Below the pieces are notes generated by a model. The model was not told where the DNA came from. It did not search any database and saw only the letters and a program-made list of their open reading frames with translations. Positions 30,097 through 50,204 of a stretch of 64,000 nucleotides of DNA are shown here, piece by piece. Both the position numbers and the translations under genes were made by a program. Location: contig NZ_SIRT01000002.1 of assembly GCF_004310325.1 (NCBI RefSeq), forward strand, positions 310,001-374,000, given 5' to 3'. This stretch comes from Hyunsoonleella flava (GTDB lineage Bacteria > Bacteroidota > Bacteroidia > Flavobacteriales > Flavobacteriaceae). The stretch's first letter is position 1. Every line of letters begins with the position of its first letter.

Positions 30097-30133
30097 TTTC
30101 CTTTCTATGAATTTTAATCAATGTTCAAAACCC

Positions 30134-30209
30134 GCGTTAGGGATTGAGCGATTGTTGGAGCTCCTCGCAGAGAGCGACTCGTGAAAGCCCGACCCTTGTG
30201 GTAACGCCC
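30134..30209. repeat. dispersed repeat family A, copy 2, inside the trp operon
   Basis: Inverted relative to copy 1: GCGTTAGGGATTG at one end, GGTAACGCCC at the other, with GAAAGCCCGACCC and the hairpin AGCTCCTCGCAGAGAGC between. It lies between trpB and trpA and would be part of the trp mRNA. Confidence 0.8.
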
Positions 30210-30214
30210 AAATT

Positions 30215-32038
30215 TTAAATTTTAAAATAATCTATATAATTCTGTAAGTCTTTATCACCTCTACCCGATAAACTCATAACCACAACATCGTCTGGTTTAA
30301 AGGTTTTATGTTTGAAAATAGCAAATGCATGCGAGGTTTCTATAGCTGGAATAATACCTTCTAATTTGGATAATTCTAAGCCAGCTTCCATGGCATCACT
30401 ATCGGTTATAGATAAAAATTCGGCACGCCCCGTTTTGGATAAATGCGCATGCATTGGGCCAACACCAGGGTAATCCAAACCTGCAGAAATAGAGTAAGGC
30501 TCTGTAATTTGTCCGTCTTTGGTTTGCATCAATAAGGTTTTACAACCGTGAATGATACCTTCTTTTCCTAAAACAGAAGTTGCAGCACTTTCGCCAGAAT
30601 CAATACCTAAACCAGCAGCTTCTACGGCAATAATGCCAACATCGGGTTCATGTAAATAATGGTAATAGGTGCCAGCGGCGTTACTACCACCACCAATACA
30701 GGCTACCACATAATCGGGGTTTTCTCGTCCTTCTTGCTCACGTAGTTGCCATTTTATTTCCTCCGAAATTACGGCTTGAAAACGCGTTACCATATCTGGA
30801 TACGGGTGTGGCCCAATAGCAGAACCAATAATGTAGTGTGTGTTTACGGGATTATTAATCCAATCGCGAATCGCTTCGTTAGTGGCATCTTTAAGTGTAC
30901 GACTTCCAGATAGTGCTGGCACAACCTTGGCGCCTAACATTTTCATTCTGGCTACGTTTGGTGCTTGTCTTGCAATGTCTATTTCACCCATGTAAACAAT
31001 ACACTCCATACCCATTAATGCACAAACAGTGGCAGTGGCAACGCCGTGTTGTCCTGCTCCTGTTTCGGCAATAATTCTAGTTTTGCCTAAACGTTTAGCC
31101 ATTAAAATCTGGCCGATGGTATTATTTATTTTGTGAGCTCCTGTGTGGTTTAAATCCTCACGTTTTAAATAGATTTTAGTATTATATTTTTCTGAAAGGC
31201 GTTTAGCAAAATATAGGGGAGAAGGGCGACCAACATAATCTTTTAAAAGCTTATCAAATTCCTTTTGAAACTCTGGTTCTGCCATTACTTTTAAATAGTT
31301 TTGGCGTAACTCTTCTACATTTGGGTATAGCATTTCTGGTATAAATGCTCCCCCAAATTCGCCATAATAACCTTTGTCGTCTACATTATAATTCATTGTT
31401 TTTTTATTGTGCAATTTGTTAATGAATTCTCTTAATATTGAACTGTTTTTTAATCCTGGTTCGGTTTCAAATTTACTATTTACATCAATAGCATAACAGT
31501 ATTTTGAAGCATCGCTTTTTTGAAACGTCTTTATTGCTTCTATTTGATCAATCCCAATACCACCACTTAAAAAGAAGGGTTTTGTTGATGGGTAATCGTT
31601 TAGCAAGCTCCAATCAAAAGTATAGCCATTGCCACCAGGAAGTTTTCCTTTGGTATCGAACAAATAATAGTCACATACATTTTCGTAAGGTTCTAAAACT
31701 TCAAAGTTAAAGCCTTCTTTAACTGAAAATACTTTAATAATCTCAATGGGTCTAGATAACAAACTTGTAGAACGTAATATACTACAGAAATATGGCGATT
31801 CTTCGCCATGGAGTTGCACCGCATCAAGTTTAAATTCGTTAACTTTTTCAACAATGGTGCCTATTTCTGCATTTACAAAAACACCTGTTTTTTTAATATT
31901 GTCTGAAATATCGGGGATTTTAGTATCGAAATGGCGCGGTGTTTTTTCGTAAAATATAAATCCAAGATAATCTGGTTTTAAAGCCGCAATGCTTTCAATA
32001 TTATCTTGGTATTTCATACCGCAAACTTTTAGTTTCAT
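30215..32038 (-). CDS. trpF/trpB: fused TrpF-TrpB: phosphoribosylanthranilate isomerase and tryptophan synthase beta
   Basis: One open frame of 607 residues. Residues 1-214 are Trp[44 protein letters not shown]. Residues 215-607 are a full Trp[25 protein letters not shown] with the PLP Lys, [22 protein letters not shown]. They are joined by LHNKKT then MNYNVDDKG, with no stop. The internal ATG at 31394-31396 is preceded by an A-rich stretch, so separate TrpB translation is also possible. The frame overlaps the trpC 3' end by 4 bases. Whether the fusion is real depends on sequence accuracy near a run of seven As. Confidence 0.88.
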
Positions 32039-34638: not shown

Positions 34639-36045
34639 TTAAATATCTTCTGCTAATTGAATAGCTTTTGTTAAGGCGCCTAGTTTATTATATACTTCTT
34701 GCAATTCGTTTTCTTGGTTTGATTTTGATACCAAACCTGCGCCGGCTTGCCAGAACAATTTGTAATCTTTACTTAAAAATGTACGTATCATGATGGCGTG
34801 GTTAAAATTCCCTTCGAAATCCATGAAGCCAATGGCGCCGCCGTAAAAGGCGCGACTTGTTTTTTCGTAATCTTCTATAAGTTGCATGGCCCTGTGTTTT
34901 GGCGCGCCACTTAATGTGCCTGCTGGAAAGGTGTCTGCCACAACCTGCATGGTTGAGGTAGTATTATGCTTTTGCCCTGTAACTTTACTTACCAAATGGA
35001 TAACATGCGAGAAGAACTGCACCTTGCGATAGGTTTCTACTTTTACTTGGCTGCCGTGGCGACTTAAATCGTTTCTGGCCAAATCGACAAGCATAACGTG
35101 TTCTGCATTTTCCTTATCGTCGTTTTTTAAATTTTCGGCTAAAATCTCGTCTTTTTCGTAATCGCCTGTTCTTTTATATGTTCCGGCAATGGGATGAATT
35201 TCTGCTAAACCATCTTCTACGATTAATTGTGCTTCGGGCGAGCTGCCAAAGATTTTAAAATCACCATAATCAAAATAAAATAGGTATGGCGATGGGTTTA
35301 TGCTTCTAAGGGCGCGGTAAATATTAAATTCGTCGCCTGTAAATTCTTGAGAAAAACGTCTGGATAATACGAGTTGAAATACGTCTCCACGTTGGCAATG
35401 TTTTCTGGCTACTTCTACGTTTGCTCTAAATTCGTCGTCGGTTAAATTAGATTTTATATCGCCTTTTGCATTAAACTTATATGACGCAAAATTTTGCACA
35501 TTAATGAGTTTATCAATTTCATCAATATTATTTTCAACACCTTCATAACAATGCGCAAAAATATAGGCTTCGTTTTTAAAATGGTTTATGGCGATGATGT
35601 TTTGATACACTGCATAATATATGTCTGGAATGACTACAGAATCGTCTTTTTTACTGATTTGAACATCTTCAAAATAGCGTACCGCATCATAAGCGGTGTA
35701 ACCGAATATACCATTGTTGATGAATTTGAAATTTTCTTCAGATTTTGTGTCAAACTTTTTTGTGAAATTATAAATTTCATCAACTACATTTATATCATCT
35801 GTAATTTCAATAGACTTAGAACTTCCATCAGGAAATGTTTCTGAAATCACTTCATTTTCAACCTTAATTGTAGCAATGGGGTTGAAACAGATATATGAAA
35901 AGTTTTTTTGACTTTTATGATAATCGCCACTTTCTAATAAAATACTATTGGGGTATTTGTCACGAATTTTATAATATACTGTAACGGGTGTAATAGTATC
36001 TGTAAGGATACGTTTGTGGTGTGTATATAGGCTGTATTTTTTCAT
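34639..36045 (-). CDS. trpE: anthranilate synthase component I
   Basis: Converts chorismate to anthranilate, the first committed step. The feedback motif ILLESGD near the N-terminus is intact, so tryptophan inhibition is expected. Chorismate-binding motifs follow: RRFSQEFTGDEFNIYRAL, EIHPIAGTYKRTGD, DLARNDLSRHG, FPAGTLSGAPKHRAM, and GAGLVSKSNQENELQEVYNK. The 468-residue length is normal. Upstream on the same strand lie the GIY-YIG gene and then the trp attenuator at 36447-36569. Confidence 0.97.
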   Translation of the reverse strand: MKKYSLYTHHKRILTDTITPVTVYYKIRDKYPNSILLESGDYHKSQKNFSYICFNPIATIKVENEVISETFPDGSSKSIEITDDINVVDEIYNFTKKFDTKSEENFKFINNGIFGYTAYDAVRYFEDVQISKKDDSVVIPDIYYAVYQNIIAINHFKNEAYIFAHCYEGVENNIDEIDKLINVQNFASYKFNAKGDIKSNLTDDEFRANVEVARKHCQRGDVFQLVLSRRFSQEFTGDEFNIYRALRSINPSPYLFYFDYGDFKIFGSSPEAQLIVEDGLAEIHPIAGTYKRTGDYEKDEILAENLKNDDKENAEHVMLVDLARNDLSRHGSQVKVETYRKVQFFSHVIHLVSKVTGQKHNTTSTMQVVADTFPAGTLSGAPKHRAMQLIEDYEKTSRAFYGGAIGFMDFEGNFNHAIMIRTFLSKDYKLFWQAGAGLVSKSNQENELQEVYNKLGALTKAIQLAEDI

Positions 36046-36061
36046 AAATTAGTTACTGTCT

Positions 36062-36079
36062 TTTCCGCGAAGGCGGAAA
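36062..36079. repeat. family B palindrome, trpE side of the GIY-YIG gene
   Basis: TTTCCGCGAAGGCGGAAA: seven-base arms with a four-base loop. The same hairpin in inverted loop orientation is at 36410-36427, on the other side of the GIY-YIG gene. Confidence 0.75.
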
Positions 36080-36092
36080 TTTTTTTGTTTTA

Positions 36093-36389
36093 TTATATAA
36101 AGAAATGTGATAAATCATTCCAATGTGGATTTAAATCGTTAATAAGGTTTATTTTCCATTGCCTATTCCATTTCTTTATTTGCTTTTCTCTTTTTATTGC
36201 TTCTCCAGCAGTTTCAAAATTTTCATAATAAACCAATACATCTAGTCTATGTTTATTTGCAAACCCTCTGGTGTATTTCTTTTTATATTGAGTTAGTCTT
36301 TGTTTTATATTTCCTGTCATTCCTAGATACAAAATGCCATCCTTTTTATTTGTTATAATGTATATATAACATGTTTTATCGTTAAACAT
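36093..36389 (-). CDS. stand-alone GIY-YIG nuclease-domain protein
   Basis: 98 residues consisting of only a GIY-YIG domain: YIYIITNKKDGILYLGMTGN, where the second motif is YLG, then IKQRLTQYKKKYTRGFANKH and the Glu-containing VYYENFETAGEAIKREKQIK. This is the short UPF0213/YhbQ-like type, with no DNA-recognition domain. The frame is open upstream through a family B palindrome (read as VISAKAEI), so I start at MFNDKTCYIY. It lies between the trp attenuator and trpE, flanked by palindromes on both sides. Role unknown; a mobile-repeat link is inferred. Confidence 0.85.
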   Translation of the reverse strand: MFNDKTCYIYIITNKKDGILYLGMTGNIKQRLTQYKKKYTRGFANKHRLDVLVYYENFETAGEAIKREKQIKKWNRQWKINLINDLNPHWNDLSHFFI

Positions 36390-36409
36390 TGAACGAACGA
36401 ACCTCATGA

Positions 36410-36427
36410 TTTCCGCCTTCGCGGAAA
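36410..36427. repeat. family B palindrome, upstream of the GIY-YIG gene
   Basis: TTTCCGCCTTCGCGGAAA followed by TGACA. It is the inverted partner of 36062-36079, with the loop CTTC instead of GAAG. It begins 20 bases before the chosen GIY-YIG start. Confidence 0.75.
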
Positions 36428-36446
36428 TGACACTATTTTTACACAA

Positions 36447-36476
36447 AAAAGGCTTGTCGTGAATGACAAGCCTTTT
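36447..36476 (-). terminator. trp attenuator terminator hairpin
   Basis: On the minus strand AAAAGGCTTGTC, loop ATTCAC, GACAAGCCTTTT followed by more Ts: a 12-base stem and a strong intrinsic terminator. It sits after the leader peptide and before any trp gene. TTCACGA, formed by the loop and the right arm, is complementary to TCGTGAA at 36512-36518, which could form the antiterminator. Confidence 0.85.
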
Positions 36477-36521
36477 CGATATTTTAAGATTTAAATATAC
36501 TAGGATTTTACTTCACGAATG

Positions 36522-36569
36522 TTAGTTTCGAAAGCACCACCACCAAGTATTATTTAAACTTTTATTCAT
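36522..36569 (-). CDS. trpL: trp operon leader peptide
   Basis: A 15-codon ORF, MNKSLNNTWWWCFRN, with three consecutive Trp codons at 36537-36545, about 20 bases downstream of a promoter and followed by a terminator hairpin. When charged tRNA-Trp is scarce, ribosomes should stall on the Trp codons and leave the TCGTGAA segment free to pair with TTCACGA, opening the terminator. This is the classic attenuation logic. It rests on sequence pattern alone; the predicted antiterminator is only seven base pairs. Confidence 0.8.
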   Translation of the reverse strand: MNKSLNNTWWWCFRN

Positions 36570-36587
36570 TTTTCTTTATTTATGGCT

Positions 36588-36618
36588 CAAATATAAAAAT
36601 GAAAATATAATTACGCAA
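36588..36618 (-). promoter_or_regulatory. trp operon promoter
   Basis: On the minus strand TTG (36616-36618), a 20-base spacer, then TATATTTG (36588-36595). This is a good match to the Bacteroidota promoter. The trpL ATG follows 18 bases later. Confidence 0.7.
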
Positions 36619-36643
36619 TTGTTTGCCGCTTTTTTTAAACAAA

Positions 36644-36671
36644 AAAACTACCATATTTCTATGGTAGTTTT
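36644..36671 (-). terminator. MarR gene terminator
   Basis: AAAACTACCATA, loop, TATGGTAGTTTT: a 12-base perfect stem with a T run on the minus strand. It ends the MarR transcript just before the trp promoter. Confidence 0.8.
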
Positions 36672-36695
36672 AGAGATTATTAAGTGTTGAGAGAG

Positions 36696-37157
36696 TTAGT
36701 TCGCTATTAACCTTATTTTACTTAATAATCTAATTAGTTCGGTAGCTTCTTTATCTGTTAAAGAATTTACCATGTTTACTTCACTGCTATCAATCAATGT
36801 ATCAATACTCTTTAGAAAAGCCAACCCCTCTGTTGTTATTTTGATATCAATTTTTCTTCTATTAGTTTTATTTATTCGCTTTTTTACTAGTCCTTTCTTA
36901 ATAAGCTTATCAACCAATCTCGTGGTATTGCTCATCTTGCTGATCATCCTGTCCTGTACAACACTTAAAGATGCTGGATTGCCTTTTTGCCCTCTTAAAA
37001 TTCGCAAAACGTTGAATTGTTGTAATGAAATATCATAAGGTTTCAGTACTTTATTCAGTTCGCCATTTATCTTTCCAGATGTGTACAAGAGATTGACGAT
37101 AACACTTTTTGATAGTGGGATATCAGCATTTAATTTTAAGATATCTTCAATCCTCAT
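36696..37157 (-). CDS. MarR-family transcriptional regulator
   Basis: 153-residue winged-helix DNA-binding protein: SLQQFNVLRILRGQKGNPAS, recognition region MISKMSNTTRLVDKLIKKGL, wing VKKRINKTNRRKIDIKITTE. MarR proteins often respond to phenolics or oxidants. The divergent neighbours are two thioredoxin-like genes, which hints at redox or stress control, but no ligand is readable. A perfect palindrome lies over its own promoter, so autoregulation is likely. Confidence 0.92.
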   Translation of the reverse strand: MRIEDILKLNADIPLSKSVIVNLLYTSGKINGELNKVLKPYDISLQQFNVLRILRGQKGNPASLSVVQDRMISKMSNTTRLVDKLIKKGLVKKRINKTNRRKIDIKITTEGLAFLKSIDTLIDSSEVNMVNSLTDKEATELIRLLSKIRLIAN

Positions 37158-49805: not shown

Positions 49806-49813
49806 CCTTTCTG

Positions 49814-50204
49814 TGGAGTCGGAGAGAATCGAACTCTCGTCCAAACAAGTAACCAAAGGGCTTTCTACACGTTTAGTCTATTCTTGGGTTTTCGATTGCA
49901 AGCTGGCTAAAGACAGCCTACTTACAACTTAGCTTCTAAATCTCGAAAGGGCACCAAAGCACTACCCAATCTTAGTCAATATTTACGATGCCTTAAAAAG
50001 GAACGCCATTAACCAAGGCTTTCCGGAGACATTTAGCTTGTACACCTTGTGTACCTAGGCCAATCCTACTATAATTCAGATTATGCAGCTAAAGCGTAGT
50101 TATTCTCGCCGTTTAAAATTTGGTCTAGCCTTTTACGTGTTTCAATGCCATTACACGACGTGCTTACCGTTCAATTAATCTCGCTGTCAAAACCAGTCGA
50201 CCCC
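49814..50204 (-). ncRNA. ssrA: transfer-messenger RNA (tmRNA)
   Basis: Rescues stalled ribosomes. Minus-strand 5' end GGGGTCGACTGGTTTTGACA pairs with the 3' end CGACTCC to form the acceptor stem (one G-U). The T arm region GTTCGATTCTC is clear. The tag ORF at 50081-50110 reads GENNYALAA then TAA, typical of Bacteroidota. The length is about 391 bases, so it is a one-piece tmRNA. The 3' CCA is not encoded (the discriminator A is followed by CAG) and must be added afterwards. Confidence 0.95.

Follow-up and report, generated by a model that had tools for sequence, protein, structure and literature searches.

The trp operon of Hyunsoonleella flava is preceded by a leader of a known RNA family, Bacteroid-trp (RF01692), which probably works as a ribosome-mediated transcription attenuator. 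Comparison with other genomes reveals Trp-leader attenuators in Bacteroidota lineages that RF01692 misses, together with a concrete and testable mechanism. A palindrome-flanked GIY-YIG nuclease gene inserted between the attenuator and trpE is the best lead and the part most worth following.

Family membership and distribution of the leader

Coordinates (Table 1) refer to the window, the whole stretch of 64,000 nt of DNA that was analysed. The match to RF01692 spans all 131 model positions and lies upstream of trp biosynthesis genes as the family requires, with trpE at 36045, past the GIY-YIG insert. The window shares with the family the position upstream of trpE, the leader, the helix and the start of the terminator, and differs in the cassette between terminator and trpE. 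The Bacteroid-trp motif was catalogued in 2010 by Weinberg et al., whose Table 1 gives y for RNA, y for cis-regulatory and n for switch (PMC2864571); the passages of that paper on the motif state no mechanism. The element is not an undescribed one. A search of open-access papers by title and start of abstract, with subscription papers, supplements and preprints outside its scope, returned none describing the mechanism of the Bacteroid-trp leader.

In whole-genome scans, RF01692 recurs in 208 of 299 genomes of the family (184 above the cut-off) and in all 12 genomes of the genus. Only 30 of 296 genomes drawn from the phylum have it, and the model is thus nearly confined to the family.

Table 1. 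Coordinates of the leader, the GIY-YIG cassette and the trp genes in the window.
Feature	Start	End	Strand	Basis or detail
Promoter: TTG (36618-36616), 20-nt spacer, TATATTTG (36595-36588)	36588	36618	-	Sequence
RF01692 Bacteroid-trp match	36465	36589	-	cmscan, 61.6 bits (gathering cut-off 49)
Leader peptide ORF, 15 codons: MNKSLNNTWWWCFRN, then stop	36522	36569	-	WWW at 36545-36537
5' strand of outer helix P1, UUUAAAUAAUACUUGG, inside the leader ORF	36542	36558	-	Fold and cross-species comparison
Region 2, UUCGUGAA (TTCGTGAA), predicted antiterminator strand, 3 nt past stop	36512	36519	-	Cross-species comparison, pairing
3' strand of P1, CCUAGUAUAUUUAAA; contains CCU, a possible alternative partner of AGG in the terminator 5' arm	36490	36504	-	
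Intrinsic terminator	36446	36477	-	Loop AUUCAC 36464-36459; TTCACGA 36463-36457 complementary to region 2
Left palindrome, TGTC + ATTTCCGC-GAAG-GCGGAAAT, REP-like	36409	36432	-	Criteria in section 6 of PMC3733652
GIY-YIG nuclease ORF, 98 codons	36093	36389	-	PF01541, 6.1e-16
Right palindrome, inverted copy, CTGTC TTTTCCGC-GAAG-GCGGAAAT	36056	36080	+	Sequence
trpE, first gene of the regulated operon	34639	36045	-	Pfam
trpG, trpD, trpC, trpF-trpB ORF, trpA	29329	34637	-	Pfam; NCBIfam for the trpF-trpB ORF

Promoter, leader peptide and operon

A promoter, a 15-codon ORF with three consecutive Trp codons and a 12-bp terminator had been described as standing in this order before the trp operon, and all of them were found in place on the minus strand. 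The trp genes after the leader are, by Pfam, trpE, trpG, trpD, trpC, a single ORF combining trpF and trpB domains, and trpA. The fused ORF (30215-32038, minus strand) encodes 607 residues, and its top NCBIfam model is the bifunctional enzyme, with a score under the cut-off (775.5 vs 819 bits). Promoters of Bacteroidota have the consensus TTTG/N19-21/TAnnTTTG. Of 97 related leaders, 96 have TAnnTTTG no more than 70 nt ahead of the ATG of the leader ORF, and 88 of these 96 possess TTG 17-23 nt farther upstream; by chance, TAnnTTTG occurred in 32 of 770 random stretches.

The related loci included 90 from the family, namely the best-scoring ones plus G132, out of 208 matching genomes. Of 101 loci entered, 100 were parsed; L083 was dropped since the script recognised no terminator in it, and L095 was dropped as a duplicate of L134. 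Three consecutive Trp codons are present in all 100 aligned leaders, and the leader ORF is the only one with them among the 1679 ATG-initiated ORFs of up to 30 codons in the window. CGTGA begins 27-29 nt past the first Trp codon in every one of the 99 leaders that have it, and the stop codon lies between -7 and +8 nt from CGTGA in 96 of the 98 leaders with a resolved stop; in 44 leaders the stop TGA is itself inside UCGUGA. From this spacing and stop position, a ribosome finishing the leader would sit on region 2 and one stalled at the Trp codons would fall short of it. These counts support the ribosome-mediated trp attenuation proposed from the sequence. The expected conservation of the Trp codons extends beyond the RF01692-type leaders, since 12 of 13 trpE upstream regions in family genomes without an Rfam match have a terminator preceded by a short leader with WW or WWW.

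At class level, a WW leader was found at 15 of 27 trpE loci. None of the 26 tested unmatched leader loci reached the Rfam cut-offs. The Trp leaders at L161-L173 and L196-L221 fall under the RF01692 gathering score; in several the Trp run is WW, not WWW, and the stems and loops differ from the model.

Leader helices and proposed antiterminator pairing

The predicted fold of the ribosome-free leader (-38.4 kcal/mol) consists of the outer helix P1 (UUUAAAUAAUACUUGG with CCUAGUAUAUUUAAA), an inner helix P2 holding region 2, and the terminator. The latter has 13 pairs, the outermost being G-U, hence 12 Watson-Crick pairs. Four terminator-like sites were found on the two strands of 36000-36700, against 0.2 expected, and the scan reported the leader palindrome under the plus strand only, because the minus-strand stem extends into the T tract. 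Applied to the 100 RF01692-type leaders, RNAalifold recovered the terminator alone, with zero double changes; as it missed the outer helix, P1 was assessed by per-sequence pairing. The strands of P1 and of P2 pair better with the partner strand of their own species than with that of another (0 of 300 permutations for either helix), to which relatedness may contribute. CCC or CCT occurs within 22 nt after region 2 in 73 of 99 leaders vs 15.9 expected; after a ribosome has opened P1, it could bind the AGG in the 5' arm.

Region 2 is complementary to TTCACGA in the loop and adjoining arm of the terminator, and the preliminary description had taken TCGTGAA and TTCACGA for an antiterminator pair. 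No covariation between region 2 and the loop was seen within the RF01692-type set (228 of 300 permutations were equally good), where the pairing is too uniform to covary. Leaders unmatched by Rfam from the family and the class were therefore taken for the test, giving a diverse set of 26 (the window and 25 others), with L198 left outside due to a miscalled trpE start. In this set region 2 pairs with its own terminator loop at a mean of -9.38 kcal/mol, against -6.66 (sd 0.46) kcal/mol with permuted loops of other genomes, and 0 of 10,000 permutations were as good as the own loops. Reversed and shuffled control loops gave -5.58 and -6.07 kcal/mol, respectively. The 20 leaders without UCACGA in the loop display the same difference (-9.65 vs -6.84 permuted, 0 of 20,000). 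Taken one by one, 12 of the 26 leaders pass the 5% level against shuffled loops and the other 14 do not; pairing was at chance level in L206, L210, L211, L214, L220 and L221.

The pairings of L173 (GGAUUCAG/CUGAAUCC), L212 (GAACAGC/GCUGUUC) and L168 (UCGCGA/UCGCGA) have no sequence in common with the window. L169 has UGCGAUGA/UCAUCGCG, and CGCUGUGA/UCACAGCG was seen by eye in L213, which is outside the count as the script recognised no terminator there. An alternative pairing that would exclude the terminator is thus kept through compensatory change in the diverse set and is invisible within the RF01692 set. The comparison supports an antiterminator complementarity preserved despite altered sequences in the unmatched leaders; this part of the earlier proposal stands, and the compensatory changes expected for the TCGTGAA/TTCACGA pair did not appear among the RF01692-type leaders.

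Proposed mechanism and alternative explanations

From the anatomy of the leader, its conservation and the complementarity retained with changed sequence, we infer the following course of events. When charged tRNA-Trp is ample, the ribosome would reach the stop codon and cover the adjoining region 2, upon which the terminator would fold and transcription would halt ahead of the operon. When Trp is scarce, the ribosome would stall on UGG UGG UGG, opening P1 and freeing region 2, which is located 19-26 nt past the last Trp codon. As UUCACGA of the terminator loop and adjacent arm emerges, free region 2 would pair with it, assisted by CCU binding to AGG in the 5' arm, and RNA polymerase would continue; in H. 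flava the read-through would make the GIY-YIG nuclease first and trpE next. In an untranslated leader, P1 and P2 would sequester region 2 and the terminator would prevail. The loop pairing alone (-8.8 kcal/mol) is weaker than the terminator (-18.7 kcal/mol) and must therefore act kinetically. In a plain minimum-energy fold of the stalled-ribosome leader, computed without pseudoknots, the terminator still forms.

The textbook case of attenuation is E. coli trpL. Both leaders have a short ORF with adjacent Trp codons, a region at its stop complementary to the terminator, and a terminator before trpE, but no shared leader sequence is apparent and E. coli has WW where the window has WWW. The preliminary description had equated the layout with the classic E. 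coli one. This does not hold in two respects: region 2 of E. coli matches the 5' arm whereas that of the window reaches mainly the loop, and the GIY-YIG ORF follows the terminator and precedes trpE, so that the attenuator does not directly adjoin trpE. A strictly E. coli-type mechanism, in which region 2 forms the antiterminator with the 5' arm of the terminator (2:3) and the loop complementarity is secondary, seems to us unlikely, though it is the foremost alternative. When pairing was sought across the whole terminator, 25 of 26 leaders gave predicted 5'-arm pairs, which dominate in L210, L220 and L209, and in L210, L211 and L220 the 5' arm is a better partner than the loop, as in E. coli, but these predictions were run without a permutation control. 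The CCU of the window and the enrichment of CCC/CCT after region 2 fit such pairing as well, and the same script placed leader CGGGC of E. coli K-12 on 5'-arm GCCCG, together with another helix on the 3' side. In the RF01692 type, however, the conserved and best-paired block hits the loop and 2-3 bases of the 3' arm.

The terminator core GGCTTGTC/GACA(A/G)GCC is present in 100 of 100 RF01692-type leaders, with G-U at one pair as the only variation, a count biased by the parsing script and the Rfam selection, which both favour that sequence. This core does not support the view that the leader lacks sequence conservation of its own. Such invariance is beyond the need of a hairpin and would suit a conserved RNA bound by a protein or another RNA at the unchanging stem, the leader peptide being a by-product. 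We consider this very improbable: the invariant set had been selected through its Rfam scores and a pattern favouring the core, and in the unmatched leaders L167, L171, L172 and L173 the stem changes along with its partner arm while the Trp codons are kept. A second copy of the core was sought in the H. flava genome and none was found, the stem being present once. A chance juxtaposition of a short ORF with another gene's terminator, for which no point was found, is contradicted by the Rfam match, the recurrence in family and genus, and the single WWW among 1679 short ORFs, and can practically be dismissed.

A GIY-YIG cassette between the probable attenuator and trpE

The preliminary description contained neither the RF01692 match (36589-36465) nor the GIY-YIG ORF between inverted palindromes. 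The ORF matches PF01541 with 58.9 bits (cut-off 22.6) over model positions 2-78 of 78, and an alternative ATG at 36407 in the H. flava genome would give a protein of 104 residues. CGTC REPs are defined by a CGTC or TGTC tag, a stem of 8-9 bp starting with AT and a loop of 4-5 nt (PMC3733652, section 6). The left palindrome has all three features, with a TGTC tag, an 8-bp stem starting with AT and a 4-nt loop; the right one, an inverted copy, lacks the first stem pair. Unlike the CGTC REPs treated in that section, these palindromes bracket a GIY-YIG gene and are not high-copy, as the pattern has only two matches in the H. flava genome, both of them the cassette copies.

The cassette is found at the identical place in 4 of the 12 genomes of the genus, where the distance from WWW to trpE is 491-500 nt, vs 110-143 nt in the other eight. 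Its four GIY-YIG copies share the 98-codon frame, with dN/dS of 0.07-0.20. Their dS (L126, L127, L130, L131) is 0.20-0.54 vs 0.71-2.10 for the adjoining trpE, a difference that interspecies transfer of the cassette might explain. At L101 and L102, which belong to two further species of the genus (G306 and G307), a GIY-YIG gene with related palindromes is located between trpB and trpA. A TAnnTTTG promoter was sought within the cassette and none was found; expression of the nuclease should therefore follow the tryptophan supply.

GIY-YIG genes and tagged palindromes in other genomes

Inverted repeats, commonly REPs with a CGTC/TGTC tag, flank 108 of 134 GIY-YIG loci, the other 26 being under the threshold; L035 and L312, which are one place, are both counted in the 134. 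Such repeats were found at 23 of 27 loci in the genus set, which excludes the trp-leader cassettes L033, L096 and L098 (similar to L097), vs 0 of 27 in the control, and at 20 of 30 in the class sample vs 1 of 29. A set of 80 loci from named genomes, mostly Flavobacteriaceae plus Ignavibacteria, Endomicrobia, Nitrotoga, Syntrophales, Chlorobiaceae and others, yielded 77 usable loci, with one flank missing in L247, L257 and L270. An inverted repeat with a score of at least 12 between the two 180-nt flanks is present in 65 of these 77, against 3 of 74 with shifted flanks, and GTCA is found at the repeat in 50 of the 65. Tagged hairpins are situated on both sides of the GIY-YIG gene in 60 of the 77 loci, with a density of 6.60 per kb near the gene vs 0.76 farther away, in a control that includes coding sequence. 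Pairing flanks across loci was rejected as a control: 687 of 1139 such pairs scored 12 or more, because the palindromes of different loci look alike, and it was replaced by shifted flanks and motif density.

Similarity of the nucleases is correlated with similarity of their palindromes (Mantel r 0.725, 0 of 500 permutations) in 89 of the 134 loci, with relatedness and horizontal transfer unseparated; the 45 excluded loci had scores under 14 or were outside the length limits. A second palindrome type, sought as solo copies in the H. flava genome, turned up at two places only, both beside its own GIY-YIG gene. This genome thus showed none of the non-autonomous repeats that a REP family should have.

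According to a 2013 survey, CGTC repeats have no dedicated transposase and are not associated with transposase genes (PMC3733652), and the string 'GIY' is absent from the text of this survey by Di Nocera et al. Open-access papers, searched by title and start of abstract with subscription papers, supplements and preprints outside the scope, included none that links GIY-YIG nucleases to REPs. In RAYT/REPtron elements, as characterized in the survey (PMC3733652), an enzyme gene is likewise flanked by REPs whose sequences match the enzyme type, but the enzyme is an HUH tyrosine transposase, whereas the candidate mobile cassette described here encodes a GIY-YIG nuclease fold.

Judged from sequence comparison, there is about an even chance for the following reading as a whole. 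Small stand-alone GIY-YIG proteins may be the dedicated enzymes of CGTC/TGTC REPs, in the same role that RAYTs have for GTAG REPs. The trp operon of the genus may have acquired such cassettes on two occasions, once in front of trpE, after the attenuator (4 of 12 genomes), and once in the trpB-trpA spacer (two genomes); in the former place the nuclease would have become the first, Trp-attenuated gene of the operon. The nuclease would spread the tagged hairpin by cutting it or a site next to it. The insert in this way suggests a candidate enzyme for widespread palindromic repeats whose spread was reported as unexplained in 2013.

In the trpB-trpA spacer of the window (30097-30214, minus strand), a stretch GAGGAGCTCC...CTCAATCCCTAACGC is similar to one 3' of the GIY-YIG gene in L120 and possibly represents another repeat family. 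The window also contains a tmRNA gene (49811-50204, minus strand) with the tag GENNYALAA.
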